A stretch of DNA of 64,000 bases from Quercus robur (taxonomy: Eukaryota; Streptophyta; Magnoliopsida; Fagales; Fagaceae): positions 9,729,282 through 9,793,281 of the forward strand of contig NC_065535.1 in assembly GCF_932294415.1 (NCBI RefSeq). Direction: 5' to 3'. A model generated the notes under the pieces. It saw only the letters and a list, made by a program, of their open reading frames with translations. It was not told the origin of the DNA and did not search any database. The translations under genes were made by a program, and so were the position numbers. Positions 3,963-64,000 of this stretch are shown here, in pieces (position 1 is the first letter of the stretch; the number at the start of each line of letters is the position of its first letter).

Positions 3963-4012
<50 letters not shown>

Positions 4013-21920: not shown

Positions 21921-21935
21921 ATTGATCCAATATCA

Positions 21936-22736
21936 ATGGCTTCTACTCAGTCCAGTTCATCTTCTTCATCGTCTTCTTCAAGTGCTGTGCCTGCTATGGT
22001 TTCTTCAGGTCTGCTAGTGAATTCTTTGTTGCTGTTGCTATCAAATATGTCATCTATGATGACTGTGAAGCTGGATTATGGGAATTATGTGGTATGGAAA
22101 CATCAAATCGAGGTAATTCTTGATACCTACTCCATGATTGATGTTCTTGATGACTCAGTCACTGCTCCAGATAGATTTCTTAAGGATTCATCTGGTAATT
22201 TTACTACTGAAATTAATCCAACGTTCATAGCTTGGAAGAATCGTGAACAAGCAATGTTCACATTCTTGAATTCAACTCTTTCTCCTGCAATTCTTGCTCT
22301 CATAGTTGGGCAAAAATCTGCCAGAGGTGTTTGGAGAGTGTTAGAGAGGAGATTTGCATCAATTTCAAGATCTCATGTTATGAGTCTCCGTAATGAATTG
22401 AATGCAATTAAGAAAGGGAATGAATCAATTGATAGTTATTTTCAGAAAATTAAGCAAGCTCGTGATAGATTAGCTGTTGTGTCTGTGTTTGTGGATGATG
22501 AGGAAATTCTCCACATTGTTCTTGATGGTCTTCCATCTAGCTATGACTCTTTTAGTTCTGCTATTAGAACTAGGAGTGATGTGTTGTCAGTGGAAGAATT
22601 GAATGCATTACTTAATGCTGAAGAGAGAGTTATAAAGAAGAGATCTAATGGTGTTGATCAAGTTGCTATGGCTATGGCTACAAACTTTCATTCACAAGGC
22701 TTTCCTCGAGGAAGAGGAGGAAGAAATTACAACTAG
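21936..22736 (+). pseudogene. copia gag, N-terminal part, closed by a TAG
   Basis: The frame starts MASTQSSSS and contains the Gag region of plant copia elements (DYGNYVVWKHQIE early on; later SIDSYFQKIKQARDRLA and LDGLPSSYDSF). It stops at a TAG (22,734-22,736) in the middle of an RG-rich stretch. The same frame continues through a second TAG (22,866-22,868) to a CCHC zinc knuckle (22,965-23,006) and then into protease, so gag and pol were one reading frame. Confidence 0.85.
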
Positions 22737-24938: not shown

Positions 24939-25030
24939 CTTGCAAATGGGTTTACAAACTCAAAAGGCATAGTGATGGGTCTGTTGCCAGGTATAAGGCC
25001 AGATTAGTGGCTAGGGGCTATCTTCAGTAG

Positions 25031-26473: not shown

Positions 26474-26781
26474 AACCCAACGATGCCGTTTTGGATTATA
26501 TTAGTTATTGAGGGTCTGAAGGATCACACACGTGTAAGGACCTGTTATGACTCGTGTGAGACGGTTACAAGTTTGTTATACCAGACTCCGTTGGGCTCTC
26601 TCTCCCTCCTTCTCTGATGTAACTATATATATGAGTATCTATTCATTTGTAAATGATTGAATTGTATTGTTCTCTTCCATAGCAATAATACTTGAGCTTT
26701 TCCAGTTTATTTTTTAGTCTCAGTTTTTTCATTTCTGTTTTGGTTAATACAATAACAATGAGATAGAGAGTGGTTTTCTCA
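26332..26781 (+). repeat. 3' LTR of the copia element
   Basis: A 450-bp copy of the 5' LTR, followed by the AAGAA duplication. Differences include CGGC/TGGT in the phrase TTCCAAYGGY, AACAATG/AACGATG and CACGCACG/CACACACG. Confidence 0.95.
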
Positions 26782-33412: not shown

Positions 33413-34041
33413 CAGAGGGGGTGAGCCCTTTGCTCTCATCAGTATCTCTCTTTGCACTTGAGTCCTTATTATCTCTCCCTGGCTTCACCACAAGCAACCA
33501 AGCTGTCTCTTGTTGGATGTGTAGCTGGCTTGTTGGAAGCACTGAAACACAAACCCAAAACCAAAACCAAAACCAAAACCAAAACACCAGCTTTCTCTCT
33601 CTCTTCTAGCTCTAATTCTGTGGTTGTGCACAAGTGCAAGCTAAATAGATGGTAAAGCTGCTGCTCCTGCTGCTTTTCTCAGTAGCACAACTGTGAGTTT
33701 GGTCCAAGTTTTGATTTCTTGTATTTATTTTGAGTTATTGTTTCCAATTATTTTATATCATATGCTCTCTCTTTCTCTTCAAAGCACGCGTCTTGTAAGT
33801 GAGAACTGTTGAAATTAGCAGCATAGGTTGGTGGGTTTAGCAGTACCCTAATTCTAAATCAGGTGGAAGTGGGAGAAAAAAAAAAAACAACACGATAATT
33901 AGTTAAGCTACCTCTAATTATCTCTTTGAAAAATTGTCGGCCTTTTCGATTGGAAGAGAAGTTACAAGGTACAAAATCTTGGTAGCGGTCCAAGATCTAA
34001 GCTAGGATAGAAGATTGAGAGGTTCCATCAGTGCATAAATA

Positions 34042-35010
34042 ATGGAAATGAAAGCGCAAGAAAAAGAACTAGGAACCCCAGGATCTTTAAGCTATGGTGG
34101 TCATCTCATTGGAGGATCACTAGAAGTTGAGAGAAGAAGAGATGGATTTCATGGTGGAAGTGGAACTGCAAGCCGCAGTCGTACACAATCCCTAGCTCCT
34201 CAACAACACCACCCTAGTCAAGCAAGAGTTACAGTCACAGTCCCAGATCCAGTTACTAGTGCAACAATTGCACCCATGTTAGGCAGATCCAACTCAAACC
34301 CACAATCAGCAGCAACAGTTAGATACCGAGAATGCTTAAGGAATCACGCAGCGAGCACTGGAGGCAATGTTTTTGATGGCTGTGGAGAGTTCATGCCAAG
34401 CGGTGAAGAAGGATCCCTAGAAGCTTTGAAGTGTGCTGCTTGTGATTGCCACAGGAACTTTCACAGAAAAGAGGTTAATGGTGAGACTCAATTCAGTCCT
34501 GGTTCAAGAAGAAGTATAGTGCTAAGCCCTCTTCAAATCCCCCCACTTTCATCTCCAGCTGGAGTGCTACACCATCAAAAATTCTCAATGGGGTTTCATA
34601 CAAACCCTACTGCTCCCATTGTTCAACCAATGAATGTAGCTTATGGTGGTGGTGGGGGAGGGACTGAGTCTTCAAGTGAAGACCTCAATGTGTTCCATTC
34701 AAATGCAGAGGCAATGCCACAGCCACCATTTTCTGTGTCAAAGAAGAGGTTCAGAACTAAGTTCACACCGGAACAGAAGGACAAGATGTTAGAGTTTGCT
34801 GAGAAGGTTGGGTGGAGGATTCAGAAACAAGATGAAGAGGAAGTGGTGAAGTTTTGTGCTGAGATTGGAGTGAAGAGACAGGTTCTTAAGGTTTGGATGC
34901 ACAATAACAAGAATTCAATGAAGAAGCCGAATGAGACTGAAAAGCAAACTTTTGAGATGGGTAATGCCAAACCAGTGGCAGTGGAGGGAGGCATAGAGGC
35001 TGAGATGTAG
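34042..35010 (+). CDS. Zinc-finger homeodomain (ZF-HD/ZHD) transcription factor
   Basis: A plant-specific nuclear transcription factor of 322 residues in a single exon, as is usual for this family. The N-terminal ZF-HD dimerisation domain spans residues about 93-147, with VRYRECLRNHAAS, DGCGEFMPSGEEG, then CAACDCHRNFHRKE carrying the cysteine/histidine zinc ligands. A proline/serine/glycine-rich linker follows. The homeodomain spans about 234-296, with KKRFRTKFTPEQKDKMLEFA and the recognition helix VLKVWMHNNKNSMKK. ZHD proteins form homo- and heterodimers through the zinc finger and bind ATTA-core DNA. The start MEMKAQ was taken because it is the first ATG in frame. Both domains are complete and no lesion is visible. 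Confidence 0.95.
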   Translation: MEMKAQEKELGTPGSLSYGGHLIGGSLEVERRRDGFHGGSGTASRSRTQSLAPQQHHPSQARVTVTVPDPVTSATIAPMLGRSNSNPQSAATVRYRECLRNHAASTGGNVFDGCGEFMPSGEEGSLEALKCAACDCHRNFHRKEVNGETQFSPGSRRSIVLSPLQIPPLSSPAGVLHHQKFSMGFHTNPTAPIVQPMNVAYGGGGGGTESSSEDLNVFHSNAEAMPQPPFSVSKKRFRTKFTPEQKDKMLEFAEKVGWRIQKQDEEEVVKFCAEIGVKRQVLKVWMHNNKNSMKKPNETEKQTFEMGNAKPVAVEGGIEAEM

Positions 35011-37981: not shown

Positions 37982-38524
37982 AGGTAATCATCTACTTTAA
38001 GCAGAATGATAGAGATACAATTTTTTTTTTTACAAAAACTTTCACAAACTGTTGATGTGATGAGTGATTATTGATAAATAAAAAAATGATATTTGTGGGG
38101 CCCGGCCCAAAAATGATGGGCTATTCCAAACTCAGGCCCGTTCGAGGAGCGTCCTGTCCGAAGAGAAGCCTCATATGAAGCGTTACTCAACCCCAATAGC
38201 GTCAAGGAAACCTGTCCGAGGAGTAACTCCTCCTCGGAAATCACGAAGCCCAGACGAGGAACTTTCCCCAGCCATTTCAGCTCATCTTCCCAACATATAA
38301 AATAGGGATGGCAACGGGTCGGGTTCGGGCCGGGTTTTTGCATACCCGGGCCCGACCCGTGGGCCAAGACCCTAAACCCAGGCCCGGCCCGAATAATAAT
38401 CGGGTTTTTTTTCCGGGGCCCAGACCCGCCCCGCCGGGCCCCGCGGGCCCCGTTTAACCTGTTGGGCCCAAATCTGGCCCAACTAATTTTTTTTTTTTTT
38501 TAAAGCCCATTGAGCTGTTTTTTG

Positions 38525-39247: not shown

Positions 39248-41599
39248 CTAACCGTTGATTTCACTCCATAACCAATTCTGAGCACACATCATTGCCTCTA
39301 TAGTCTTGGGATGTAGCCTACTACGGTGTGGACTTAAAAGTCTCCCACTAGTGCTAAAGGCCGATTCTGAAGCAACAGTTGTAATAGGAATGGCTAAAAT
39401 ATCTCTTGCAATCCTTTGTAAAGTAGGATACTTTAAACCATTACTTTTCCACCATCCCAAAATATCAAAATCTTCACTCCTCTTCAACACTCCCTCATCA
39501 ATGAAATGATCAAATTCCATTCTAGCACTCCCATGTTTCTTTGAACTACTTGAACTATTATTCACAAACTCATCAAAAGATGACATTGCCCCACTCAACC
39601 TAAATTTCATTTGTGCCACAGGGCTTGAAGTACTAGCAGGAACATGGGAACTTCCTTCATTATCCACAGAGGACTCATTTATATCACCATACTCATCAAG
39701 TAAATCATAACAAAGATTCTTAATTTTTTCAATCTCCAAATTAGAATTATCACCATAAATTTTAGGATAATAAAATTCTAATAACTTCATCTTATATCTT
39801 GGATCTAAGATAGCAGCAATAGCCATAACAACACTAACATTAGCCCAATAAGAATTAAACTTAGCAAGCATACTTTCCGCCATCGTACTTATCATCTCAT
39901 TTGAATACACACTCCATTCATTCAATGCAATTTTCAACTCACACACCACATTAAAATACATATTAGTTGTGGGGTACTTACGACCAGAGAAAAACTCAGT
40001 CGCACTATGAAACAACTCCAACCTCCCACAAATATCTTTGGCTAACTCCCAATCATAATCATATGGTAAACAAGTATAAGATATTTCACGTTTAGCCAAA
40101 CGTGAGAAAACATCTTTATAAATCAATGCAGTAGAAAGCATTAAGTAAGTTGAATTCCAACGAGTTTTACAATCTAAGACTAACTCTTTGGTGCATTGAA
40201 CACGCAATTGACGTGCATTTTCTTCAAATTTTTGCCTTCTTTTTGGTGATCCAGTCCAATAAATCACACTATCACGAATCCTCTCAATACCATCACCAAT
40301 AAGAGACAACCCATCTTGAACAATCAAATTCAAAATATGTGCAGCACACCTCATATGCAACATAGACCCACCCAACATAAGAGAACTAGTATCAAGCTTA
40401 TTCAAAAGAAGTCTAATCATGGCATCATTAGTACTACAATTATCAACAGTAATTGTAGACAACTTCCTATCAATGTTCCACTCTAAAAAACAATCAACAA
40501 GGACTTCAGCAAGAACTTCTTTTGTGTGTGGAGAAGGAACATAAACAAACCTAGAAAAATAATATGAATAATTATAACATAATTCAAAAATCATTCTAAA
40601 TGTAAAGTCTTTAACATTCAATTTATAGATAAAAAAATTACCTTAGAACCCGGCTTTGCAACATCCAAGTATGATCAATGAAATGAGCGGTAATGACCAT
40701 AAACCCTCTCTTTTTGTTACTTGAAGTCCACATATCGGTTGTAATGGCCACCTTACTTCCATTCTTGTCCATCATCTTCAAAGCTTTCTCCCTCTCATTA
40801 TCATAGATCTTAAAAATGTCACTCTTCAAAGTATTTCTTGTGACAAGTTTAAACATAGGTTGAAGATCGGTCACAAATTCTTTAAACCCAATATGGTCAA
40901 CCATTGAAAGAGGATATTCATGTAGGATGACCATACGGGCAAGCTTATTCCTCACTCTAACTTGATCAAATTGATAAGTACTTAAACTCATGGTTCCATC
41001 CACCTTATTTTGTTGTTTGATCAAAACTTGTTGTCTCATATCCCTTATATCTTTAAATTTCATTCGTGGACATCTTGCTAAATGATTACGTAAATGAGTT
41101 GTACCTTGGTTGGACTCACCCAAGTAAAGTTTGTTACAATGATGGCATTGGGCTTTAACTTTTCCGTCAACTTTCTTCCTTGTAAAGTGAGACCAAACAT
41201 CTGAGGTAGTCTTTCTTTTTCTACTTGTATCCAAGTCCTCATTTGTAGGCTCTTGCTCTCTCTCTGTCCCTTCTTGTTCCTCTACCTCTAAGTCTTCTCC
41301 TACTAAGTCCACCGTCGGAGATTTCGGATTCCTAATTGGTTCAAAAGTTTGGGAGTTAGAATCAAAACAAATTATCACAAATTTATTATTACACATACTC
41401 ATTGATTAACTACAAATTCAAACACTTACTCATTTAATGGTGATCCTGAGGGTGAACTGACAGGTGACAATGGTGAGGGTGACCGTGAAAATGGCGAAGG
41501 AGACCGCAAAGTCGGCAAGGGACAACGTCCGGTTCTCAAGGGAGAACCACTTGGCGAGGAAGAACCAGATTTGTTTGTGTCTGTGTTTGTGTCTTCCAT
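39248..41599 (-). CDS. hAT transposase with BED zinc finger, three exons, 720 aa
   Basis: Cut-and-paste transposase of the hAT superfamily. Exons on the minus strand are 41,599-41,430, 41,331-40,642 and 40,550-39,248. Donors GTAAGT and GTAATT and acceptors ATTAG and TCTAG give a continuous frame of 721 codons including the stop. Exon 1 encodes a serine/proline-rich start (MEDTNTDTNKSGSSS). The BED finger lies at about 101-145 with C119, C122, H136 and H140. A core with ITTDMWTS and STITVDNCSTND follows, and the hAT dimerisation domain sits near the C-terminus (ILAIPITTVASESAFSTSGR, then LHPKTIEAMMCAQNWLW). No stop or frameshift is visible once spliced, so this copy may be able to act. Unspliced, the exons look like two separate frames. 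Confidence 0.85.
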
Positions 41600-42905: not shown

Positions 42906-43656
42906 TCAGATTTGGGGATTTAGGTTAGAAATAGGTTTATATATATAAAGGGCATTTTAGTAATTTAGGGTACCGGGTTTTAAACGGGGCGGGTTTCGGG
43001 TCGGGTTTCGGGTTTTTTTAATAAAACCCGGACCCGACCCGGACCCGCTTCGGGTTTTTTTTTAAAAATCCATACCCGACCCTATCCTTAATCAGACCGG
43101 GTAAAACCCGGCCCATTAGGGTCGGGCCGGACCGGGTACCCGCGGGTCGGGCCGAAATTGCCATCCCTAATATAAAATGAATTAAATCCAAAATATCTCA
43201 TGGAAGGCTACCACCACATTAATTGCGCCCCAACCACCCTCTTGGCCGCATTAATGAGGAAAAGACTCCTGATCAGTACTGCCTTGGCCTCTGCAACTCA
43301 CAAAGGGACTGATGAGGGCGTTTGATGGGACAGGTGCTCAAGTGGATGCTTGGATGATTAATAGGTGTAAGGTTGAGATGAAAAGAAGAGAAATATATAA
43401 TGTAGTGGAGTCCCTCAAAGAAGGGGACGGGAAAAACTGTATCAGGAACAAAAAAGAAATAAAATCATACTTGAGAAAGATCCATTCTGGTGTTTTTAAT
43501 TTCTTTTTGCAAACAATACTGTCCATGCATTAGACCGAACAAGTTCACTGAGGATAAGTTCTTTGACCCATCCTCTACAAATATTTATTGTGGGTTGCGC
43601 TTTGGGCCAAGGCCTAATCAACATAAGTTGGGCCAGGAAAATCGTGTAACCACAAT

Positions 43657-45747: not shown

Positions 45748-46529
45748 CAACCAGCCTCCTCGGCAAAGCAAGACGAGGGGCTGGCCGAGGAGATAAGGTG
45801 TGAAGGTTTAGATAAGGTTGCTGTCAGCAATGACCCGGAGAAGTTCTTTCAGGTCGGCTCTGAATTGCCCTCTCAAGAAAAGGAGGAACTGGTCAGATTT
45901 CTCAGAGAAAATGTCAACGTATTCGCTTGGGATGCCTACGATGCCCCGGGAGTTGATCCTAGCCTCATCTGTCACCACCTGAACGTCAACCCTTCTTCCA
46001 CTCCGAGGAAGCAGCCACCCTGACGCCCTTCAAAGGAACACGCTAGTGCCGTAAGAGACGAGGTGGCAAAGTTGAAAAGAGCAGGGGCTATCAAAGAGGT
46101 CTTTTATCCCGAATGGTTGGCGAACACAGTGGTGGTAAGGAAGAAGACGGGGAAGTGGAGGGTCTACGTGGACTTCACGGACCTGAACAAGGCGTGCCCC
46201 AAGGACCCATTCCCTCTACCCAAAATCGATCGATTGGTGGATGCAACCGTGGGGCACCCTCGAATGAGCTTCCTGGACGCCTTCCAGGGCTATCATCAGA
46301 TACCCCTTGCGCTAGAGGACCAAGAGAAAACGGCTTTCATGACGCCCATCGGAAATTATCATTATAAGGTGATGCCATTCGGGCTAAAGAACGCGGGCTC
46401 AACCTACCAAAGGATGATGACTCGGATGTTCGAGCCACAACTGGGCAAGATCATTGAGGTGTATATAGACGATATGGTTGTGAAGAGTAAAAGGGTGTCC
46501 GAGCACGTGAAAGACCTTGGAACAGTCTT
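45748..46529 (+). pseudogene. Element A reverse transcriptase, 5' part
   Basis: Continues the gag-protease frame, with one TGA (46,021-46,023, consistent with CGA to TGA). It encodes the fingers and palm (WLANTVVVRKK, VDFTDLNKACPKDPFPLP, VMPFGLKNAGSTYQR) and the catalytic YIDD at 46,462-46,473. Element B interrupts it 52 bp later; the other half resumes in the same frame at 56,471. Confidence 0.85.
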
Positions 46530-47146
46530 TGATGATTCCTTGATTATCAGTGGGTTGATAAGACTTGAACGTTGATCTTCGGGCTATCTCCTGTAATACC
46601 AAAAACACAGAATCAGAGGGGACCGGTGATGACCGGCCGAAAATCCTCCGATGATCAAGTTAGTTCCTTGGAACTCTCTGTAACAAAGAAGTATTCTCTT
46701 AAAAGTAAGAAAATGTCTGAATACCTTTTTCCTTCATCGAAGAAGCCTTATATAGTGTGTGGAACGGTTATCTATTTGGTAACCGTTCCCAGTGTCGAGG
46801 AGTCCGGAGAATTGGGAGTAACCGCTGTGGAAGTTACTTAGGTCAGACGGGCTGATGAACTCGTCCATCCATAGTGAGGATGGACGAGACCTTCATGAGG
46901 AGCTCGTCCACTTTTAGTCCATCCATAGCAAGGATGGACCAGACCTCCAGGATGATCTCGTCCACTTTTAGTGAAAGACGGACGAGATCATCTTGGAAGG
47001 CTTGTCGTTCATAAATGACAAGTAGATCTTAGGTGTTAAGCTCGTCCATATACGGACGAGGGTTGTTGGTACGCTTGTTGTCGCTTCTGTCGTTGGACGA
47101 TACATATGGACGAATTATGGGCTTAGGATTATTTGCAACACCATCA
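46530..47146 (-). repeat. 3' LTR of element B
   Basis: Read on the plus strand it starts TGATGATTCC and ends CAACACCATCA. It contains nine TCGTCC/GGACGA words. A minus-strand TATATAA (46,748-46,754) is the likely promoter core. Confidence 0.95.
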
Positions 47147-47160
47147 GTTGCCCCCTCGTC
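47147..47160 (-). other. Polypurine tract of element B
   Basis: On the minus strand GACGAGGGGGCAAC adjoins the 3' LTR, the position and composition expected for plus-strand priming. Confidence 0.65.
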
Positions 47161-47219
47161 CATGTGAGTCGTCCAGAAGGTTGAACGTTCTTGGACACAA
47201 TTGGTTAATAATTACTGTG

Positions 47220-47345
47220 CCACGTGTCCTTTTCTTATTAGAGACTGATTCCGTCGATTTATTTTTCCAAGGTAGATGCCACGTGTTGCTTCTGTATTGG
47301 TTGGGTCGTTTCAATTACCCAGGTCAGCATCCTATAAATAGTGGA
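47220..47345 (+). promoter_or_regulatory. Promoter of the antisense gene in element B
   Basis: Just inside the LTR lie two CACGTGT motifs (about 47,221 and 47,280), ATTGG (47,297) and a strong TATA box CCTATAAATAG (TATAAATA at 47,333-47,340). They point toward the start codon at 47,501, leaving a leader of about 130 nt. Confidence 0.65.
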
Positions 47346-47500
47346 ATGCCTCCCTTGACCCTCCTCATTTCAGAAATTTTCTTCCTTGACATCCATCGTC
47401 TAGAGCCTCGTCTAGGAGTTCTCTGCGTCTAGAGTCTTCTCCCGTCTAGAGCCAGGTACTCTTCTTTTTCTCGTCTTTAGGTTTAAGTTTCTTGTTAGGG

Positions 47501-49718
47501 ATGTCTGTCGCTTCCTCGTCCACAGATAGCCTTAATAAGGTTATAGACGAGTATTGTGATGATACTAGTGATAGGTCTAGTTCTAGCGGTGCTAGTGATG
47601 AGAGTGGAGGAAGCACGGACGAGAACTACTCTTCTGGGGCCCCTGGGCTCCCTATTGAAGTCGTCCAAGAACAGCTTAGGAGAGCTTCTGGTTCTCAAGC
47701 TGGTTCTCCGTCCAATCCTACGGACGAGGTAGAGACTGTCTTTAGTTGCGCTGTAGGCGTCCATTCTAAGACGGACGAACAAAGGTTAGGTAACCTTAGG
47801 TCCTGGTATCAAATCCCAGACGAGTTTAACCCTAGGCTACCCGTCCGTGGAGAGTGGTGTTGTGAGCCCCATTTTGGAATAGGCGTCTATGAATCCTATT
47901 TCTTAGGTGGCCTTAGGTTTCCTTTAAATGCCTTTGCTAGGGAGTTACTAGTCAAGTTAGGTTTAGGTGTTTGTCAATTCAATCCCAATGCATGGAGGTT
48001 AATTATCTCCATGCAAATTTTGTGGAGGGAAGTGTTTGGTGGGGACCGTCTTCTTACAGTGGACGAGTTCCTTTATTGTTATAAACCTTCTGCCATAAGT
48101 CAGTCTGAAGGTTTTTATCAGTTTACTGCTAGAGGGAATGATTGTAGGTTGATCAAGTCCCTAGCTTCGTCTGATAGGAAGTGGAAGACGAAGTTCATTT
48201 TTCTTTCAGGCTTCTGGGCAGGGAACCCTGTGGACGTTGGCAGGGATCCCTTTCCTCCTTACACTGGGGACTTAGGGAACCTTCGTCCAGAAGGTACGTC
48301 CCTTCCCCTCGTCTATTTTTATTCTTACTCCTATTTGGTACATTTACAATTTCTAACCTTTATTTGTTCATTGTGTTGTAGCTGCCAAACGTCCGTCCTT
48401 GAGCAAATTTCACCGTGACCGCGTCCACAGGGCTCGTCTACACGCAGATAGGAGCTTCCATTCTCTTATCACGCTTAGACGTCTAGCCAAGTGGGGTTTA
48501 GGTCCCGAGCCTTCAGACGAAGCTATAGCTCACGAGGTTACTGTGCGAAAAAGTAAGTTTTTAGCTAAACTTCCTTTCCCTTTTCTTTTTTGTATACCCT
48601 TTTTTTTTTTTTGTATACATTTCTTAACTTGTTCATCTCGTCTTAGGAATGTCAACCATGAAAGAGAACAAAGGGAAGGAAATTGCTGGAGAAGGGAAGC
48701 GTCCTGAGGGTATAGCCCAGGATCGTCCTGAGGGTCAGACGCGTCCAACGGCTGGGGATAAAAGAAAATTCTTGCCAAAGAGTATTGACCTGGAAGGGCT
48801 CCCCAGTCGTAGAGACAAAAGGGTTAAGCAGAGCTCGTCCAAGGTGGTTAAGTCAAAACCTCCTCAGACTCAGCCTGCCGTCCAGATAGTCGACGTGGAC
48901 TCGTCCACTCCAGTTGAATCCACTCCGTCCAAGACTCCGCCCAGAACTCCTTTAGCCAAGTTTACTATGCCTGGCTCGTCCCAGCCTTCTACGAACATAA
49001 TTGAGAGCGAAGATCTGGCTTGGGAACGTTTCCAGACAGCCGTCAAGGACGAGGATATAAACATGTGCTACAACATGGGCTTGAAGGAATTTGAACATTC
49101 AGGCGTCCATGACCTCTTCAAGGTATGCTAGCATCCCTCGTCCTTGTTCAGTTATTAAATTTTCCTCATCTAATCATTCTATGTTGTTCTATCTATTCAC
49201 AGGCCATGTCGAAGTTTATAGCAGCGTTTAGACAGGCAACGGAGCTGGACAAGACGAGAGTCTTGTTGGAGACGAGGATTCAGGAGGTGAACGCTGATTG
49301 TAAGAAATGGGCTGGGTTCGCTGAAAAAGCTAAGGACGAGGTCAAAGAGCATAATAAGTTGATTGAGGAGCTAAGGACGGATGCATTGGAGAAGGAGACG
49401 CGCATTGATCACTTACAACAGGTGAACAATGAGTTGAATGCTCGTCTTTCCAAGGCAAGAGAGGACGCTGTGGCAGAGTTCAAGTCGTCCAAAGAGTATA
49501 CAGACACTTTGGATCGCAATTATGCAGCTGGTTTTGAAGATTTCAGAATGGACGCTGTTGAAAACTTTCCTGAAGTTGACTTCAGCACAATCAAGCTTAA
49601 CCTTGCTGCTGCCACAAGCTCTCTCCTTCAGACTGGCTCTGATGACGTCAACGTGGAAGACGACGCCAGTACTCAGCCTCCTCAGGACGAGCCTGCTGTG
49701 AATGCTCCCCCTTCTTAG
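47501..49718 (+). CDS. Antisense gene of element B, four exons, 651 aa (PF04195-like)
   Basis: Encoded opposite to gag-pol. Exons are 47,501-48,293, 48,382-48,552, 48,647-49,122 and 49,203-49,718; all introns are GT-AG (donors GTACGT, GTAAGT, GTATGC; acceptors TTGTAG, TCTTAG, TCACAG). The joined frame is 652 codons with no lesion. The N-terminus is acidic and serine-rich. A globular region (about 90-270) contains GGLRFPLNAFARELL, LGVCQFNPNAWR and FIFLSGFWAGNP, resembling the family annotated as 'putative gypsy type transposon' (PF04195). A basic linker with PSRRDKRVKQ follows, then a long coiled coil in exon 4 (LETRIQEVNADCKKW, LIEELRTDALEKETRIDHLQ) and an acidic tail. Function unknown. Element A has a divergent counterpart, so the gene is part of the element type. 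Confidence 0.8.
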
Positions 49719-50585
49719 GACGAGACTTTAACCTTTGTAGCTTTGCTTTTTCTTTCTTTTTGTAACTTGTGTTTGGTCCTTTGTTTTTGGACCTTCTTTA
49801 TGTAACAAGAATACATTATACTCGTCCATGGTTTTAGGACGGGTTTTTTAAGTATACTACTTCTGCTTTTCAAACTAATCAAGGGTTTTTGGACGTAGGA
49901 TGTCCACCCTTTGAATGAAGTTTTATTTTCTTTGCATGGATAAATAATTTCATTTTCTTTGAATGGACGAGTGATTTCATTTTCTTTGCATGGACGGATG
50001 CTGCTAAGCTATTTTACTCTTTGCTCGTCCATGTCGAGAATACATATTTTTCATGTAGTCTAACTCGTCTTAGCAGGTAGTATTTTTAATTAGCTTGATT
50101 CGTCTTAAGACTTGCAAACTAATTTTACATACCGTCTACTTATTTTGCCAACTTTTGTCTCGTCCAGAATTTGGATTGTTTCAGTTGGTTTTACCTCGTC
50201 CATGAGTTGGACGAGTATGGATGTGGTTTCTTTTATTCAAGAAAATTTAGACGTTACATCTCTGCGTCCAGAGATTTTGTTCGTCTTGGATCTTTCAACC
50301 CTCTTGAGGATTGATTTGGACGACAATATCACGGAGAATTCACACAACATTTTGTACATAACATAAATATTATTTACAGACAAGGCACATGCACACTGAT
50401 GCCTTTTTATTTAATAAATACATAATTCATGACTTCGTCCATAACCACAACACAACTATAAAAAGTAAATCATAGTTTCAAACTTCACACACAAACAATA
50501 CCAAACATAGTAGTATCAAACAGCATTACTCATAATAGTACGCTAGTAGACAGATAAGACCCAAGTCTCGTCCATAGGTTCACTC
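49719..50585. other. Spacer between the antisense gene and pol of element B
   Basis: The two genes converge here. The stretch has no long frame but is dense in CTCGTCC/GGACGAG words (for example near 49,820, 50,025, 50,160, 50,198 and 50,208). It should hold the 3' ends of both transcripts. Confidence 0.5.
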
Positions 50586-51839
50586 TTACTGGTAGTACCT
50601 CCTCAGGTGCTCCACATTCCAAGGATGTTCCAATTTTCTTCCGTCCAGGGCCTCCAGGTAGTAGGATCCTTGTCTTTTACAGTTGATTACTCTATAGGGT
50701 CCTTCCCAGTTTGAGCCCAACTTCCCATGTGCTGGGTTCTTGGTTGACAAAGAGACCTTTCTCAGGACGAGATCTCCTATATTGAAACGCCTAGGCTTCA
50801 CCATCGCATCATACTGCTTAGCCATGAGGTTCTTATACTTTGCTGCCCTGTATTCTGCGTTTGCCCTTACCTCGTCTATTAGATCGAGGTTCAGACGAAG
50901 CTGGTCCTCATTATCCTTGTCTTGATACGTCATCACCCTGTGATTAGCCATATGCACTTCTGCAGGTATGACTGCATCGCTTCCATAGGCCAACTTGAAA
51001 GGGGTCTCCCCTGTAGGGGTCCTCACAGTGGTCCTGTATGCCCATAAAACTCCTGGTAATTCATCTGGCCATATTCCCTTTGCCCCCTCAAGCCGAGTCT
51101 TGATGATTTTCAACAAGGATCGGTTTGCTACTTCAGCCTGGCCGTTGGCTTGGGGGTGTGCAGGCGAGGAGTAATGGTTCTGAATTCCAAAGTGTAAGCA
51201 AAAGTCCTTGAAGAGTGCATTGTCAAATTGCCGTCCGTTGTCAGACACCAATACCTTCGGCACTCCAAATCTGCAAACAATGTTCTTCCACACGAAGTTC
51301 TTAACATTCTGTTGTGTGATATTTGCCAACGGTTCTGCCTCCACCCATTTGGTGAAGTAATCGATGCCCACAACTAAGAACTTCATCTGCCTTACTCCCA
51401 AAGGGAAGGGACCCAAAATGTCCAATCCCCATTGTGCAAAGGGCCACGGTGCTACCATTGGGGTGAGGTATTCCGACGGTTGCCTGGGGACATTGCTAAA
51501 TCGCTGGCACTGGTCGCAGACTTTAACGTATGCTTTTGCATCAGCTTGCATGTTCGGCCAGTAATATCCTGCACGGACGACCTTGTGGACAAGTGATCTG
51601 GCTCCTGAGTGATTGCCACATGCCCCTTCGTGAACTTCTCTCAGCACGTAGTTCGCTTCGTCCGGAGCAAGGCACCTAAGGTAAGGTTGAGAGAAGCCTC
51701 TCTTGTATAGCACTTCATTCATAAGGACGTATCTAGCTGATCTCACCCTCACCTTTCTGGCCTCGTCCTTTTCTTCTGGTAGTCGTCCGTCTTTCAAATA
51801 TGATATAATGGGAGTCATCCAATTTTCTCTGTTATCCAC
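50586..51839 (-). pseudogene. Element B integrase
   Basis: Follows a TAG (51,840-51,842) in the same frame. It has the HHCC zinc site (HEGACGNHSGARS ... CDQCQRF) and an integrase core with DILGPF, VSDNGRQFDN and QANGQAEVANRS (the three acidic residues), then a C-terminal KLGSNWEGPYRV region and the end NVEHLRRYYQ. No chromodomain is seen. Intact within itself. Confidence 0.8.
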
Positions 51840-53638
51840 CTACTGTACTTCCTGGGCATCTATACTCAGCATATACTGAACTTCATCTGACTTCTCTAAT
51901 GATTCATCTGCTGAGGCCTCTTTTGCTATAGTATCAGCTTCCACGTTCTCCTCCCTGGGGATTTGAACGAAGTCAGCTTTTTCGAACCTTTTCACAAGGC
52001 GCATCACCCTACCAAGGTATTTCTTCATTCGTCCTTCCTTCGCTTCATACATCCCATTCACTTGCCCCATGATCAGTTGGGAATCTCCCATAACACATAT
52101 GGACTTGGCTTCCACGGACTTCGCCAATTCTAGCCCTTTGAGGAGGGCTTCATATTCGACTTCATTGTTTGTCGCTTGGTACTGTAGACGGACTTTATGT
52201 TTCAGTTTGTCTCCCTCTGGGGACTGCAGGACCACACCAATTCCTCCTGCATGCCGTGTAGACGAACCATCCACATGGACGATCCATCTCTTGCTTTCCT
52301 CTGCCTCATTATGACTTGGGGTAAACTCTGCGATAAAATCTGCTAGGGCTTGAGCTTTTATGGCATGCCTTGGTTGATATCTGATATCGAACTCACTTAG
52401 CTCCACAGCCCACTGGATTAATCGTCCTGCAGCTTCCAGTCTATTCATTGCTTTTTTGAGAGGATGATCTGTCATAACATTAATGACATGTGCTTGGAAA
52501 TAATGCCTCAGCTTCCTTGACGCTGTGATCAGTGCGAAGGCCAACTTCTCCATTTGTGGATATCGTCCTTCCGCTCCTTTCAATGCCTTGCTTGTATAAT
52601 ACACAGGTCTTTGGACTTTATCTTCCTCTCTTATCAATGCTGAGCTCACAGCATATGGGGTTACCGCTAGGTACAAATATAGTTCCTCTCCTTCCACTGA
52701 TGGACTTAGCAGCGGTGCCCTGGTAAGGTATACCTTCAAATCTTCGAAAGCTCTCTGACACTCGTCGGTCCATTCAAATGCTTTTTTGAGAACCTTAAAA
52801 AATGGCAAACATTTATCAGTAGCTTTAGAGACAAACCTGTTAAGCGCAGCGACTCGTCCAGTGAGGGATTGGATTTCCTTAGTACTTTGCGGTGGCTTCA
52901 TGTCCAGTATTGCTTGAATTTTATCTGGATTTGCTTCAATCCCCTGTGGGATACCATAAAGCCAAGGAATTTCCCTGATGATACTCCAAAAGCACATTTG
53001 CTAGGATTCAGCTTCATGTGATACCGCCTCAATGTCTCAAATGTCTCCTGCAGGTCGTCTAGATGTCTTCCTTCGTCTTGACTTTTCACCAGCATGTAAT
53101 CTACATAGACTTCCACATTCCGCCCAATCTGCGGACGGAACATGTGGTTGACCAACCTCTGATATGTCGCCCCTGCATTCTTTAAACCAAACGGCATCAC
53201 CTTATAGCAGAATAAGCCTTGACTGGTGACAAAAGATGTCTTCTCTTGATCAGCCTCGTCCATTCTTATCTGATTGTATCCTGAAAAGGCATCCATGAAG
53301 TTAAGCAATTTGTGGCCTGCAGTTGAGTCTACTAACTGGTCAATGCGCGGTAATGGATAGCTGTCCTTGAGGCAAGCCTTATTCAGATCAGTGAAGTCAA
53401 CGCACATTCTCCACTTTCCATTCGCTTTTTTGACCATTACTACATTGGCCAACCAATCCGGGTAGTACACTTCCCGAATGAACTTTGCTACCATCAGCTT
53501 TTGGACCTCGTCCTTGATTGCACTATCTCTTTCTGGGGCAAACACCCTCTTCTTTTGCCGCACAGGCTTGGAGGAAGGACAGACATTCAAACGGTGGGTA
53601 ATGACACTAGGGTCTATACCCGGCATATCATCATGACT
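51840..53638 (-). pseudogene. Element B reverse transcriptase and dual RNase H, damaged
   Basis: Reverse transcriptase motifs (VDFTDLNKAC, VMPFGLKNAGATYQR) are present, but the catalytic box reads YVDY: the second aspartate codon is TAC at 53,096-53,098. A one-base loss in a G run near 52,945 shifts the frame into the next segment. That segment carries the gypsy RNase H (YLAVTPYAVSSALIRE) and then a second RNase H (VHVDGSSTRHAGGIGVVL ... ATNNEVEYEALL). The second domain is the type found in Tat elements. A TAG closes the segment at 51,840. Confidence 0.85.
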
Positions 53639-55789
53639 CTACGCAAACACGTCGATGTTGTTCTTCAAAAATTGGACGAGGTCCGTCTTAATCTTCTCTT
53701 CTAAATCTGCTCCAACCCTGGTACACCTCTCAGGGTTATTTTCATCCAAGGGAATATCTTCCAATGCTTCAGTAGGTTCTGCTACAACCCTCTTTTCTTC
53801 AATGTTCATTGCTTGAACTTGTTCATCCATGGCCAGCATGGCCAAGTAACACTCTCTTGCTGCCAGTTGGTCACCTTGTACCTGTTCTACCCCGTGTTCT
53901 GTTGGAAACTTGACTGATAAGTGGTAAGTGGAGGTAACAGCTTTCCAACTATTCAAAGTTGGCCTCCCAATGATGGCATTGTAAGAGGATGGACAGTCTA
54001 CCACAAGGAAGTTCACATCCTTGGTAATCTGTCGTGGATATGCCCCCACTATCACGGATAAGGAAATGGTACCCACTGGTTGCACCTTCATCCCACCAAA
54101 GCCTACTAGGGGGGAGTTCACTGGACGGAGCTGGTCTCGTCCTAATCTCATCTGCTGAAAAGCTGGATAATATAAAATGTCTGCTGAGCTTCCATTGTCC
54201 ACAAGCACTCTTCTGGTTGTGTAGTTTGCAATTAGTAAGGAGATGACGAGGGCATCATCATGAGGGTGATGAATTCTGTCAGCGTCCTCGTCCGTGAAAG
54301 TAATTGCCCGCTCGTCCGTGGATCTTGCTATTGGTGACCGTCCAGAAAGCTGGACGCTTTGTACTACCTTCAAGTAAGCTTTCTTGGACTTGGACGACTG
54401 GCCAGTTGTACTTCCCCCAATGATGACCCTTATCTCCCCGAGTGGTGGTCGCGATGAATCTTCCATCTTTCCTTTCTGTTTCTCGTCCCTCTGGTCTCGT
54501 CCAAGGAAACCCCTCAGCTTCCCTTGCCTTATGAGATTTTCAATTTGTTGCTTCAAGTCAAAACACTCGTCCGTGTCATGACCATGATCCCTATGGAAAC
54601 GACAGTACTTGTTCCTGTTGCGCTTGTTGGGATCACCCTTCATTTTCTCCGGCCACTTCAGGGAAGGATCATCCTTGATTTGCATAAGGACTTGCTCAAG
54701 TGGGGTGTTTAAAGGGGTATACTGCTGGTTCCGTACTGGAGGGCCTGGCTTCTTACTTTCTCGATCTCTCCTTTCCTCCATCCGTCCTTTCTTTGGACGA
54801 GTACCTTGCTCGTGCTGACGACTGGGATTTGCGTCCATTCTCTCGGACCTCTTCCTCTTCTTAGCGATGATTGCATCTTCTGCATTCATAAAATTTTGAG
54901 CCGAATGGACGAGTTCGGCCATGGACTGGGGCTCTTTCTCGTAGAGCTTATGTATAAACAGATCTGAATTCACCCCGTTGTGGAAGGCTGCCAGTAGAAG
55001 CTTATCATCTGCTTCGTCCACACTGAGAGCTTCCCTGTTAAAACGGGTGATAAATGACCGAAGGCTCTCGTTCTCTCCCTGCTCTATCGTCAACAAACTG
55101 GACGAGGAACGCTTGTGCCTTTGTCCTCTAATGAAATTGTTAACAAATAACTTGCTCAACTCTTCAAAAGAACTCACCGAATTTGGAGGTATTTTACTAA
55201 ACCAAACTCGCGCCGAACCCTTAAGGGTGGTTGGGAAGGCTCTACACATTATCTCATCAGGCACTCCTTGAAGATGCATGGTGGTCTTGAAAGTGGCTAT
55301 GTGATCAAACGGGTCACGTGTTCCATCATATGAATCCAGAGAAGGCAACTTGAACTTTGATGGTAGTGGGTGACCGTTGATGGAGGCCGTAAAGGGAGAA
55401 TCAGTCCTGTGAACCAAGTCTTCTATCGGATTCGCTCTTTTCATATTCTCTTTCATCTCCTCCATAACTCTCTTCATTTGGTCCATTTCTTCCTTCAAGT
55501 ATGGTACCGTTTGCGAAGTGGTGCCTCTAAACTGACTTCCGACTTCGGTATTCTCTCTTCCACCATGACCATCTGTTTGTCTTCCTTCACGTTCTTCTTG
55601 TGTTTGCCTCCTCATATTGATCTCCATTCGTAATTCTTGGTTTTGGCGAGTCAACTCCGCCATAGCGTCTGCCATAGATTGTGCATGTTGGGCAGATGAC
55701 TGCATGACCGGCGCAGACTGGCGATCGCGAAGCGGGTTGTTGCTTCCCTGATGGCCTGGGCTAGTAGCCCTTGATCTAGTCCGAACCAT
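53639..55789 (-). pseudogene. Element B gag and protease, closed by a TAG
   Basis: Chosen start is ATG at 55,789 (MVRTRSRATSPG); further upstream only a TTG is available. Gag is about 450 residues with a zinc knuckle (CRFHRDHGHDTDEC). The protease carries DNG in VLVDNGSSADILYY, a form I recall from other Tat elements. The frame ends at a TAG (53,639-53,641) where tryptophan is expected (VFAW), then continues in frame into reverse transcriptase. Confidence 0.85.
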
Positions 55790-55831
55790 CAACCCTTTGT
55801 CACGGAGAAAAAAACTGTAAAACAATCGTTC

Positions 55832-55847
55832 CCACAGACGGCGCCAA
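55832..55847 (-). other. Primer-binding site of element B
   Basis: Minus-strand TTGGCGCCGTCTGTGGG next to the 5' LTR, identical over this stretch to the site in element A. Confidence 0.65.
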
Positions 55848-55848
55848 C

Positions 55849-56465
55849 TGATGATTCCTTAATTATCAGTGGGTTGATAAGACTTGAACGTTGATCTTCG
55901 GGCTATCTCCTGTAATACCAAAAACACAGAATCAGAGGGGACCGGTGATGACCGGCCGAAAATCCTCCGATGATCAAGTTAGTTCCTTGGAACTCTCTGT
56001 AACAAAGAAGTATTCTCTTAAAAGTAAGAAAATGTCTGAATACCTTTTTCCTTCATCGAAGAAGCCTTATATAGTGTGTGGAACGGTTATCTATTTGGTA
56101 ACCGTTCCCAGTGTCGAGGAGTCCGGAGAATTGGGAGTAACCGCTGTGGAAGTTACTTAGGTCGGACGGGCCGATGAACTCGTCCATCCATAGTGAGGAT
56201 GGACGAGACCTTCATGAGGAGCTCGTCCACTTTTAGTCCATCCATAGCAAGGATGGACCAGACCTCCAGGATGATCTCGTCCACTTTTAGTGAAAGACGG
56301 ACGAGATCATCTTGGAAGGCTTGTCGTTCATAAATGACAAGTAGATCTTAGGTGTTAAGCTCGTCCATATACGGACGAGGGTTGTTGGTACGCTTGTTGT
56401 CGCTTCTGTCGTTGGACGATACATATGGACGAATTATGGGCTTAGGATTATTTGCAACACCATCA
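55849..56465 (-). repeat. 5' LTR of element B
   Basis: A 617-bp copy with three differences from the other LTR (TTAATTATC against TTGATTATC; GTCGGACGGGCCG against GTCAGACGGGCTG). TATATAA at 56,067-56,073 on the minus strand. Confidence 0.95.
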
Positions 56466-56470
56466 GTCTT

Positions 56471-59861: not shown

Positions 59862-62299
59862 CTAAGCTTGAGCAGGAGGATCTTCTTTCTGCTCGAGCTG
59901 AGGAGGAGGAACCTCGATGGTAGAGTCTGCGGCGGGATCCTCCGCCATATCAGGCACAAGGACGACATCAGGCACCGCCAGGTCCTGCTCCGAAGCCACT
60001 TGGGCGTCTTCAGGATTCGCATGGATCTCCCTAGGATAGAAGATGCTCTCGGGCAGTCTTAGTGCCGAATCCGCAGGAACTCCTGCAGCGTCGAGAGCAT
60101 GAGCCCATGAAATGCCGCAGTACTCCCTGCATACCTCGGGAATCTCCTCAGACAGCCTGGCCTCCGTCTCTTCAGCCCCGAGCTGGCGAGCAGCATTCTT
60201 CTCGGCCTCTGTAGCCTCTCGGATCAGCTGGGCCTCCTCCTTTACCTGCCTCAGCTCATCCTCTACTTTTTGCAGGACAATCTTGAGATCCTGCGCTGCC
60301 TGCCTCTCGGTGACGAGGTTAAGCTGCGTCGTGTACAGCTCTTTGCGCTGGTCCTCCGCCTGGGTCTCAGCACTCTTTAAACCAGCCTCTGCACTTTTGC
60401 GCCGGTTCTCCGACACCTTGAACTCGTCCGTGAGTTTAAGGTGCTCGTGCTTGAGGGACCCCAAGGCTTTCTCCATCTCCGCCCGAGCCTGGGTCTCAGC
60501 CTCAACCCGACTACGGCTATCGCGGCAAAACTCATCAGCCACGAACACCTGCTGAGTAATCTACGAACGAAACAAGAGTGTTAAAGAAATCTAGCAGGGA
60601 TAGGTAAATTAATAAAACAGTAAAAGGATTACTTACCAACGCGAGATCCCTTTTTAGGGATAGGAAGAGCTCGTGCTGAGAGAACCGCCTATAGGCCTCC
60701 ATGTCCCGAGGAAGGAGTAGGGGTTGCTCCAAGGCGTCAACCACGTACCCTGCTCGGCCTCGGTTATACTCTCGGACCGAAGCATTGGAAAGGATGGCCA
60801 CCCCATCCAATTCCAACTTGGGGTTCCATGCACGAGGGGCAGTGCGCACTTCAGCAACGTTCTCCTCATCCCGGCTCTCCGAGGAGTTACCCTTTCTGCT
60901 CCTTGGCGCCCGCGTGGTCTTTTGCTGCTTGGTCAGTTGGGCAATCACCTCACCTTCCTCAGTAGTGTCAACCGGCCTCTTCTTCTTCAGGTCCGGATTA
61001 ACCTTAAGAACAGGGTCCGAGACACCCTGAGGGACCACAGGGGGAAGGGTTTTGACCTGTGGTGGAGTTGGTCCCTTCGATGACTGACTCTTCGATGACT
61101 GACCTTTCCCTCGGGAGGACATCAGCTCCTTTAGAGTCTTTCCCTTTCCTGCCATGGGCTCTATCTCTTCGTCTGAAGTATCGTCCGAGCAGATAACGAT
61201 TGAGGGAATACCAACTGCGGAATGTTGGTCCTGCTCTGCTTCGGGATTAGAAAGCTCCACCAAGGGGTTTTGCTGAATTTCCTCCTCGAAGTAAAACTTA
61301 TCTATCTCTTCCTCAAGGGAAAGACGAGATGATTCAGCCTCTTCTTCAACCAAAACAGCAGCGCCAGGCTCGTTTATCGGAGGTAGCTGCTCTGCTAAGT
61401 AGGGATTTCTGACACCTGGCAACACAACTGGTGGCAAATCGTGGTCAGCTAGGAATCTGTCCTGGCACACGTCAATTCTAGCCAGCCTCGGACTGCCAGC
61501 CCTTATAGCGTGACCGATTGCCTGGAAAGCGCTGCTCAGAGGTTGATAGCCCAAAACCAGATGGACCGCACGCAACTGTCCGTCCTCGGTAGCGTAAATC
61601 TCCGACCTGAGAAGATAGTTTAGCGCTGGCACGTTCACAAGGCTTATCCGAGGAGCGACGTGAACTTTGTCTGCAAACAACCAAGAAAAGTGGGGTTAGT
61701 CCATGAAATTTTCCAATTACACACAAAACAAGAAAAAAATAATAACCCCTTAATACTAAATCCTTTCCCAAAAAGGACCGATCCTAAAAACGCCGCACCT
61801 GGGTTCCCTGCCCGAGTTGGACAATGAATATCGTCGAACCACTCCCCAGAAACAATGAGGAAGTCATTCTTCACGGTCTTATTGGATACTGGGAGACAAG
61901 AGATCAACCTAACGTCCTCGTTCCGGGATTTAAGATAATACCCATCATCCCCGAGGCGGTGACATTCGTACAGATAAGCCACATCGTGCCAGGTGAGGCC
62001 TAGATTCATCCGCTCGTCTAAAACGTCTACACAGCCTAGTATCTTGAACATATTCGGGGCACACTGATACGGCGTCAACCTATGGTTGAACAGGTATTCC
62101 CTTGTAATCCTACGCATGGGAAGTGTCATCCCTCCCTCTATGAAAGCAATCATGGGGATAACGACTTCTCCCTCAGCTCTATCTGTCAATATTCCTTCAA
62201 GAGGACAGTGCCGCAGCCCAACCCCGGGGGAATGTGGTATTTCGCCCTAAAGGCTTCCATAGCGGCAGGAGTTTTTACTAATTTTTCAAATCTACCCAT
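59862..62299 (-). pseudogene. Antisense gene of element A, three exons, one frameshift (PF04195-like)
   Basis: Opposite in strand to A's gag-pol. Exons are 62,299-61,799, 61,670-60,637 and 60,560-59,862, with donors GTGCGG and GTAAGT and acceptors TTGCAG and TCGTAG. Total length 2,234 nt, one base short of 745 codons; the lost base is near 62,205, where the frame changes between TVLLK and EGILTDRAEGE. The start MGRFEKLV leads into a globular region with EGGMTLPMRRITREYL, QCAPNMFKILGC and DFLIVSGEWFDD, parallel in order to the B protein (FP-L...RE-L, Q-NPN-W, FIFLSG-W). A charged and basic middle follows, then a coiled coil in exon 3 (RVEAETQARAEMEKALGSL onward) and an acidic proline-rich tail. 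Function unknown; the frameshift suggests this copy is decayed. Confidence 0.7.
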
Positions 62300-62577
62300 C
62301 TGAACTGAACTGGGGAAATGAAAGTAAAGACTGAAAAGAAAAGTAGAGTCCGAGGAGGGAATTGAAACGGAGAGAAAAGCGAAATGTACTGGTACCTTCA
62401 CAAAACGCTCAAGGGGACGCCTGGAAATCTCTCTTGGACGAAACGCTTCACAAAAACGGCTACGGCGGCGTAACGGACGCAAGTGTTCGTATATCTCTGG
62501 GATTCGATGGAGTTCTCTGGAGTCTTTTGAGGTTTGTGAAATGCAGATGAAAGAAGGAACTGAACCCCTCTGACGTC

Positions 62578-62828: not shown

Positions 62829-62842
62829 TTTTGAGGGGCTAT
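62829..62842 (+). other. Polypurine tract of element A
   Basis: GTTTTGAGGGGCTA directly precedes the 3' LTR. Confidence 0.6.
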
Positions 62843-63528
62843 TGTGGGGCCCGGCCCAAAAATGATGGGCTATTCCAAACTCAGGCCCGTCCGAGGAGCG
62901 TCCTGTCCGAAGAGAAGCCTCATATGAAGCGTTACTCAACCCCAATAGCGCCAAGGAAACCTGTCCGAGGAGTAACTCCTCCTCGGACATCACAAAGCCC
63001 AGACGAGGAACTTTCCCCAGCCATTTCAGCTCATCTTCCCAACATATAAAATGAATTAAATCCAAAATATCTCATGGAAGGCTACCACCACATTAATTGC
63101 GCCCCAACCACCCTCTTGGCCGCATTAATGAGGAAAAGACTCATGAACAGTACCGCCTTGGCCTCTGCAACTCACAAAGGGACTGATGAGGGCGTCTGAT
63201 GGGACAGGTGCTCAAGTGGATGCTTGGATGATTAACAGGTGTAAGGTTGAGATGAAAAGAAGAGAAATATATAATGTAGTGAAGTCCCTCAAAGAAGGGG
63301 ACGGGAAAAACTGTATCAGGAACAAAAAAGAAATAAAATCATACTTGAGAAAGATCCATTCTGGTGTTTTTAATTTCTTTTTGCAAACAATACTGTCCAT
63401 GCATTAGACCGAACAAGTTCACTGAGGCTAAGTTCTTTGACCCATCCTCTACAAATATTTATTGTGGGTTGCGCTTTGAGCCAAGGCCTAATCAACATAA
63501 GTTGGGCCAGGAAAATCGTGTAACCACA
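62843..63528 (+). repeat. 3' LTR of element A, uninterrupted
   Basis: 686 bp, TGTGGGG...CCACA. TATA-like ATATAAAA lies at 63,044-63,051, the exact site hit by the hAT in the other LTR. Followed by the ATATT duplication. Confidence 0.95.
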
Positions 63529-64000
63529 ATATTATTGATGGGCTCTAATGAGAACTAGTAAGAAGTTGGCCATAACAACAATTTTTAAAAATATTATAAA
63601 ATAGTTTGTGGCGGTAGCATTACTCTTGCCACAACTCCTTTTTTTTTTTTTTTTTTTTAAATTTCGGTCAGGTCAATCCCCAATTTCGGGTAGGTCAACT
63701 GGGTTTTTTTGGGCACATATTTCGGCAATACCATAGCCGAAATTTCTTTTTTCTCTCTCCCACTTCCATCACATCATTTCTCTCTCCTCTGTCCTCTCTC
63801 TTACTTTTTCTGAGAATTTCGGCAATGGTATTGTCGAAATTCATTTCTCTTCTCATTTTTCCAAATAAGTTTAAACAGTACTTATATTACAAATAAACTT
63901 GGTTTTCTACAATATTAAGCCATAAGACGCCTATTTTGTGTCATAATTTTTTTAGGACACATTTTAAGTGGTAGATAAAAAATAGTAACTTTATGTAAAA

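Follow-up and report, generated by a model that had tools for sequence, protein, structure and literature searches.

An antisense TRP28-type gene and a dispersed CpG-containing word in a Retand-type retrotransposon of Quercus robur

The window analysed here is a 64,000-nucleotide (64-kb) stretch of the genome of the oak Quercus robur (GCF_932294415.1, contig NC_065535.1, positions 9,729,282 to 9,793,281). It holds a long terminal repeat (LTR) retrotransposon, element B, at 46,530-56,465, which is read on the minus strand and is nested within the reverse transcriptase (RT) gene of a second, related element, A. The two LTRs of B are 617 bp each, start with TG and finish with CA, show 3 mismatches in 619 aligned bases when compared with each other, and are flanked by the 5-bp target site duplication GTCTT (46,525-46,529 and 56,466-56,470). 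Pfam matches to gag, RT, RNase H (RH) and integrase (INT) follow in order on the minus strand. A chromodomain was not matched in Pfam among the B proteins, and the protease (PR), which lacks a Pfam match of its own, was placed by assumption at the end of the gag open reading frame (ORF). The region between pol and the 3' LTR (3.4 kb), the LTR (617 bp) and the internal region (8.7 kb) all lie within the ranges given for Retand elements in PMC11963269 (2.9-6.6 kb, 315-1,194 bp and 7.4-12.9 kb). From this structure and the TRP28 domain described below, B is assigned as a young Ty3/gypsy element of the Retand type. Its gag-pol part (50,586-55,858) is spread over several frames, with a stop between gag-PR and RT, a change of frame from RT to RNase H and a further stop ahead of the integrase, which contrasts with an open antisense gene and with LTRs that differ at 3 of 619 positions.

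The antisense gene (47,501-49,718, plus strand) is situated between pol and the 3' LTR. The original prediction, made from the DNA letters, described it as four exons that join into 652 codons without a lesion, placed on the strand opposite to gag-pol. Both points were borne out: the exons give 1,956 nt coding for 651 amino acids and one terminal stop, with no internal stops, the three introns are of the GT-AG type (donors GTACGT, GTAAGT and GTATGC; acceptors TAG, TAG and CAG), and the Pfam matches of gag, RT, RNase H and integrase are on the other strand. The two CACGTG motifs and the TATAAATA box that had been reported upstream of the gene are present as well, within the element and beyond the LTR. 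All three exon junctions are free of gaps in 7 of 15 aligned relatives (P0001, P0002, P0004, P0005, P0007, P0008 and P0012), which are oak and chestnut gene models 48-96% identical; the remaining 8 are interrupted by a gap or an extra stretch, or end, at one junction at least. This agreement speaks against a splice model that would have arisen by chance. Among 96 scanned proteins (P0033-P0128, mostly ORFs from unspliced DNA and some long Fagus models), 42 terminate in G-x-L-R/Q-x-E-G followed by a short tail (median 18 residues), endings that fit a conserved donor of intron 1. As a sequence feature the spliced antisense gene is confirmed.

The expected resemblance of the product to PF04195 (TRP28) is borderline by score, with a match of 24.1 bits (E = 4.2e-5) that is slightly below the Pfam cut-off of 26.2. 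A first protein search, in which 7,994 candidates were scored, gave 28 relatives, 15 of them with a precomputed PF04195 match. The predicted coiled coil agrees with the model of the Castanea relative P0002, which shows a helix at 467-567 (pLDDT 89-93 over 491-560). Protein identity to B is 93-96% for Quercus robur and Q. lobata models, 69-70% for Q. suber, 64-68% for Castanea, 55% for Lithocarpus, 46-48% for other Quercus families and 31-32% for Fagus. The 28 relatives are from Fagaceae where a source is given, the named ones are annotated as uncharacterised, hypothetical or 'gypsy type transposon', and Vicient 2025 (PMC11963269) reports no TRP28 similarity outside transposable elements. The earlier suggestion of a captured host gene is not supported by these results. 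The gene alone is, by position and domain, of a known type, the antisense TRP28 accessory gene of Retand elements. Retand ORF4, Grande gene23 and RIRE2 (TRP28/Transposase_28) are described with the same antisense place between pol and the 3' LTR, a TRP28-like domain and a promoter-like region beyond the LTR (PMC7264820, PMC11963269), and TRP28 was antisense in 61 of 63 surveyed Retand clusters (PMC11963269). Maize Grande gene23 is described as transcribed from a promoter of its own, with a product located in the nucleus (PMC7264820). Compared with the known genes as presented in these sources, B has a four-exon model that is kept in oak and chestnut, and a word that extends over the whole element. 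It is this dispersed CpG word, and not the antisense gene itself, that is the new point.

The word is the most unusual feature of B and was absent from the original prediction. CTCGTCC, or its complement GGACGAG, occurs 42 times with one LTR counted, as compared to 1.55 copies expected (Poisson log10 p -41), and 49 times with both LTRs (1.7 expected). The window has 51 copies, 2 of them outside B. The density is 4.51 per kb in B versus 0.041 per kb in a 218-kb background of other oak sequence. For this comparison 300 kb was sampled from one chromosome (contig C1) as 30 pieces of 10 kb, of which 21 were taken at intervals, 6 were neighbours of matches and 3 were nearby; the background consists of 18 pieces and positions 1-38,000 of the window, and excludes 12 pieces with matches to Retand or to motif-bearing repeats. 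The low background rate is partly due to this selection of pieces; pieces with gypsy fragments (L003, L021) were kept in. In B the core TCGTCC is split 37:24 between the strands, and the spacing of the word looks random (mean 137, sd 138). GGACGAG reaches 11.3 per kb in each LTR, 8.4 in exon 3 and 8.1 in the gap 3' of the antisense gene, against 4.6 in gag-PR, 2.7 in RT, 1.6 in the integrase and 0.9 in RNase H. The word is absent from introns 1 and 2 and present once in the 80-nt intron 3. The deaminated forms are at background in B (TTGTCC 0.43 versus 0.54 per kb, TCATCC 0.75 versus 0.77). The open-access literature searched did not yield a report of a family word scattered through Retand elements.

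Table 1. Positions of the features of element B and of the homologous antisense gene of element A in the window
Feature	Position	Strand	Remark
Dispersed word CTCGTCC(A)/(T)GGACGAG	46530..56465	both strands	42 copies, 40 with distinct flanks
3' LTR of B	46530..47146	-	repeat of 55,849-56,465; LTR edge 47,146-47,148
CACGTG motif, upstream of antisense gene	47221..47226	+	sequence
CACGTG motif, second	47280..47285	+	sequence
TATAAATA box, 168 bp upstream of ATG	47333..47340	+	sequence
Exon 1: acidic/Ser-rich N terminus and predicted TRP28 (PF04195) domain, residues ~130-180	47501..48293	+	
Intron 1, 88 nt	48294..48381	+	donor position matched in 42/96 scanned proteins
Exon 2	48382..48552	+	splice joining and alignment
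Intron 2, 94 nt	48553..48646	+	
Exon 3: basic linker resembling a nuclear localisation signal	48647..49122	+	judged by eye
Intron 3, 80 nt	49123..49202	+	
Exon 4: predicted coiled coil and acidic tail	49203..49718	+	stop 49,716-49,718
Non-coding gap, antisense gene to pol	49719..50585	.	7 GGACGAG, 8.1 per kb
Integrase (H2C2 and rve)	50586..51839	-	Pfam
RNase H region	51840..53000	-	Pfam
Reverse transcriptase	52898..53638	-	frame change versus RNase H ORF
Gag and protease region	53639..55858	-	stop codon ahead of RT
5' LTR of B	55849..56465	-	repeat of 3' LTR
Antisense gene of outer element A, homologous	59862..62300	-	exon 1 frame break; word CTCCTCGGAC

The occurrence of the word in coding DNA was compared with a synonymous expectation by shuffling synonymous codons within each gene (2000 shuffles for B and A; 1000 for D, a related element introduced below). 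After shuffling, 1.5 copies of CTCGTCC are expected in the antisense gene of B and 1.1 in gag-PR; both have 10, and none of the 2000 shuffles was as high in either case. In D the core TCGTCC is found 11 times in gag (2.5 after shuffling) and 11 times in pol (3.3), with 0 of 1000 shuffles as high for each. The middle piece of the A antisense gene has 4 copies of the A word, CCGAGGA, versus 0.7 (0 of 2000). The word excess in the antisense gene and gag of B exceeds what protein and codon usage demand, and the same holds for gag and pol of D. When hexamers were ranked blind by their excess over synonymous shuffles, word hexamers headed the list for 6 of the 10 Retand pieces (in B the antisense gene, gag-PR, RNase H and integrase; in D gag; in A antisense exon 2) and were second in D RT-INT; they did not lead in B RT, A gag or A RH-INT, nor in a copia element and a hAT transposon of the window. 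The three copia ORFs tested hold none of the tested Retand words. The shuffle of E pol, from a further related element, is rough, as its integrase piece was read through a frame break with 20 stops.

These further Retand-type elements were located by tblastn in the sampled 300 kb. Element D (L017/L026; RT 78% identical to B) has TCGTCCA 23 times versus 1.7 expected, all with distinct flanks. In element E (L016/L022; RT 73% to B), L016 has AGGACGA 17 times versus 1.2, partly within repeats (10 of 17 with distinct flanks), and the gag-RT half, L022, has TCGTCCA 8 times versus 0.8 and favours TCGTCCA and CCTCGTC; the mean context in E is TTCGTCCTT, and the deaminated TTGTCC is raised to 1.45 per kb in E. 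A, its copy L012 and a 66-72% relative, L011, instead hold CCGAGGA/CTCGGAC with the consensus CTCCTCGGAC; L011 has 21 CTCGGAC, 10 of them with distinct flanks. Among the 7 elements the signal is clear in B, D, A and L012; in E and L011 the log10 p values fall back to -6.3 and -5.8 once copies with similar flanks are removed, which unrelated words in other pieces also attain. A piece without Retand matches, L030, has the CpG word ACCGCAC 10 times (9 with distinct flanks) where 0.4 is expected, and log10 p in this piece reaches -9.3. Moderate p-values alone are thus not distinctive, and E and L011 rest on the recurrence of the word in their relatives. The robust contrast is between a TCGTCC group (B, D and E) and a CTCGGAC group (A, L012 and L011).

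Motif-bearing tandem repeats are present in A-type elements. One element (L006:6,826-L023:1,894), which gave no match to gag, pol or TRP28, has ~750-bp repeats that are 97.7% alike and shares its primer-binding site with A; it also has tandem repeats carrying the A-type word, GGTCCTCGGACTC; a similar repeat unit is found at L025:169-885.

Between B and D, single sites differ more than their numbers do. Alignment of B and D gag-pol (63% nucleotide identity) gives 20 and 17 alignable TCGTCC sites of which 3 are shared, where 1.2 would be expected from identity; for B and E, 2 of 18 sites coincide (0.8 expected), and for D and E, at 80% identity, 6 of 12 (3.2 expected). Between A and L011, CTCGG sites are shared at 2 of 5 in gag (0.7 expected), 8 of 15 in RH-INT (2.4) and 3 of 23 in the antisense block (1.3). 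Sites are kept somewhat above background, strongly in the RH-INT block of A, while B and D have similar numbers at sites that mostly do not coincide. Ungapped alignment to D covers 20 of the 22 B sites, which indicates that these have arisen by substitution. These patterns bear on the view that the word is a functionless mutational or compositional artefact, caused by the error context of reverse transcription, micro-insertion or duplication. That some A- and E-type copies lie within repeats (10 of 21 in L011 and 10 of 17 in L016 with distinct flanks) and that other CpG words are enriched in pieces without Retand matches, down to the value of L030, would fit such an origin. We nevertheless consider it improbable: 40 of the 42 B copies have distinct flanks, the ungapped sites point to substitutions, the numbers but not the places agree between B and D, and the neighbours TTGTCC and TCATCC, both of which should be more frequent under a loose mutational bias, are at background.

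A second explanation that leaves the antisense gene out is that the word is a site for a host transcription factor or chromatin protein which activates or shields the element. The high word density in the LTR (11.3 per kb) would be in agreement with this, and Sirevirus LTRs are described as holding repeated palindromic CGG-CCG motifs with a suspected cis-regulatory role (PMC2829016). As far as that source goes, these are the nearest cis precedent we found, being likewise a multi-copy CpG family motif in plant LTR retrotransposons. The Sirevirus motifs are clustered in the LTRs and upstream of env, palindromic and non-coding, in Copia elements, whereas the word of B, a Gypsy element, is dispersed, non-palindromic and also coding. 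Against a host factor, two element groups of one host have different words, and the B word is above codon expectation in the gag and antisense coding sequences and very rare in the other sampled oak DNA. We regard a host reader as distinctly unlikely.

The coding sequence of the antisense gene was compared between related copies. For A and L012 the TRP28 part gives a dN/dS of 0.08 (119 codons, dS 0.14), as compared to 0.15 for gag and 0.13 for INT, which places TRP28 under purifying selection in this pair. A 119-residue stretch located after the frame break of A matches the L012 copy at 97% identity. The values for D and E, 0.07 for TRP28 and 0.05 for RT, are rough because of saturation (dS 2.0 and 1.4). 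The selection that the original prediction considered is in this way supported for the kind of gene, by a value from the A/L012 pair and not from B. Divergence between families is a different matter. B and D are 33% identical in TRP28 (D at L026:7,035-6,076), 79% in RT and 60% in INT, D and E are 74% and 87% identical in TRP28 and RT, and B and A are 28% identical in TRP28. Because TRP28 of B and D has diverged far more than RT and INT, the antisense gene may be fast-evolving or may have been exchanged between families. The same data speak to the idea, raised as possible in PMC7264820, that the antisense transcript rather than a protein acts, by forming double-stranded RNA with the gag-pol RNA and so tuning silencing. 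This we find very improbable, since the ORF and exon junctions are kept down to 48% protein identity and the low dN/dS of the A/L012 pair concerns protein sequence.

Other parts of the window are less directly related to these subjects. The 5' LTR of element A (38,093-38,303 and 43,170-43,656; the other LTR is at 62,842-63,530) is split by the hAT transposon, which has ORFs at 39,248-40,642 and 40,638-41,405 on the minus strand with Dimer_Tnp_hAT and zf-BED domains and an 8-bp duplication, ATATAAAA. The copia element used as a control (21,457-26,781) has ~452-bp LTRs and pol ORFs on the plus strand. Host-like genes code for an HhH-GPD DNA glycosylase (2,703-4,109), an AMP-binding enzyme over two ORFs (11,684-13,289) and a ZF-HD dimerisation protein (34,039-35,010).

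The word is kept by number more than by position, occurs on both strands and in coding as well as non-coding DNA, and differs between element groups. This is what would be expected under selection for a sequence-specific DNA-binding activity that benefits the element. The antisense protein is the candidate reader of the word in view of the nuclear location of the Grande product, the DNA binding of TRP28, which is a program's prediction (PMC11963269), and the basic linker and coiled coil of the B product. We give the proposal that the antisense protein reads the dispersed word a rough probability of 0.38. In this mechanism a promoter belonging to the gene and situated beyond the LTR would drive its transcription, and the product, a nuclear protein with a TRP28 domain, a basic linker and a coiled coil for oligomerisation, would bind many copies of the word over its own element and over non-autonomous partners. 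The preferred word of the B protein would be CTCGTCCA. Binding could protect the element from methylation and silencing, as in VANC proteins, or could activate it. Specificity would be obtained from word number or density and not from a single site, and sites could turn over while the total stays. The suggestions of the original prediction that the gene regulates the element or acts in trans are compatible with the word data, rather than established by them.

Several results weigh against the antisense protein as reader. The TCGTCC core is common to B and D at a TRP28 identity of 33%, and B and A, at 28%, have different words, so that the word tracks RT kinship at least as well as it tracks TRP28. 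The word of E is mixed, and in a further element, F (L010/L027), CCGAGGA occurs 9 times versus 1.4, which is weak and not distinct. As D and E share half of their sites, turnover is seen between the more distant families only. The synonymous excess of the 7-mer is not significant in RT (2 versus 0.7), RNase H (1 versus 0.2) and integrase (2 versus 0.3) of B, and the A word has no clear excess in gag, RH, INT and two of the three antisense pieces. In the hexamer ranking, the lead in B RNase H, B integrase and A antisense exon 2 is slight (z ~4.2, compared to 3.7 for copia and 3.6 for hAT). A fold model of the TRP28 region has a mean pLDDT of 56, and a fold search with it gave no significant match.

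Part of this evidence would also suit an ordinary Retand TRP28 accessory gene with another job, such as Rev-like transport of RNA, nuclear transport of the pre-integration complex or chromatin targeting, the word being read by integrase, Gag or another element protein. The agreement of the word with RT relationship and a DNA-binding fold that the model leaves unconfirmed are in its favour, and nuclear-transport or accessory roles have been proposed in PMC7264820. A signal for RNA packaging or export would be difficult to reconcile with a word that is on both strands (37:24) and reaches high density in the LTR and between the antisense gene and pol. We know of no integrase or Gag that needs dozens of internal sites, which counts against these two proteins as readers. 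Overall, such an accessory role combined with a different reader appears somewhat unlikely to us.

Returning to the antisense protein as reader, the closest functional comparison is with VANC of the VANDAL elements, which are Mutator-like DNA transposons. VANC is described as a transposon protein that binds short family words, with loss of methylation at and around them; the motifs, YAGTATTAY and AGTTGTCC, are rare elsewhere and differ by family, and the VANC6 motif is also present in AT9TSD1, which is unrelated (PMC5735166). B similarly is a plant transposable element with an element-encoded protein and an over-represented word that is rare elsewhere, a likeness that is based on the word pattern and on one B copy. 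In contrast to VANDAL, B is an LTR retrotransposon and its word has a CpG, is mostly dispersed and is partly coding. A further difference, which also weighs against the proposed reading, is that VANC motifs are non-coding tandem repeats of the same orientation whereas the B word occurs in both orientations with random spacing. As it lacks such arrays, B is not classed as VANC. PMC11963269 draws an analogy with HBZ of HTLV-1, an accessory gene on the antisense strand whose product is a nuclear regulator; here the likeness is one of arrangement, and the HTLV antisense promoter is inside the LTR (PMC7264820), unlike the promoter-like region of B. In sunflower, Retand elements are described as having locally reduced CG methylation, with CHG methylation remaining high; a CG reduction is also seen in several other lineages, and the question is raised there whether additional ORFs in other LTR lineages have VANC-like roles (PMC12844716). 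In a more general scheme, the antisense TRP28 genes would do for LTR retrotransposons what VANC does for VANDAL elements, as sequence-specific anti-silencing factors, each co-evolving with the CpG word of its own group, which would be spread over the entire element and its coding sequence, with selection acting on word number rather than positions and non-autonomous partners exploiting the word in trans. We consider this broader scheme doubtful and rather unlikely.

The matching word offers a concrete and cheaply testable candidate role for the antisense TRP28 gene of Retand elements. If binding and demethylation are true, sequence-specific anti-silencing would be shared by one group of DNA transposons and an abundant group of LTR retrotransposons in plants, and selection would write a regulatory word through a mobile element's own coding sequence.

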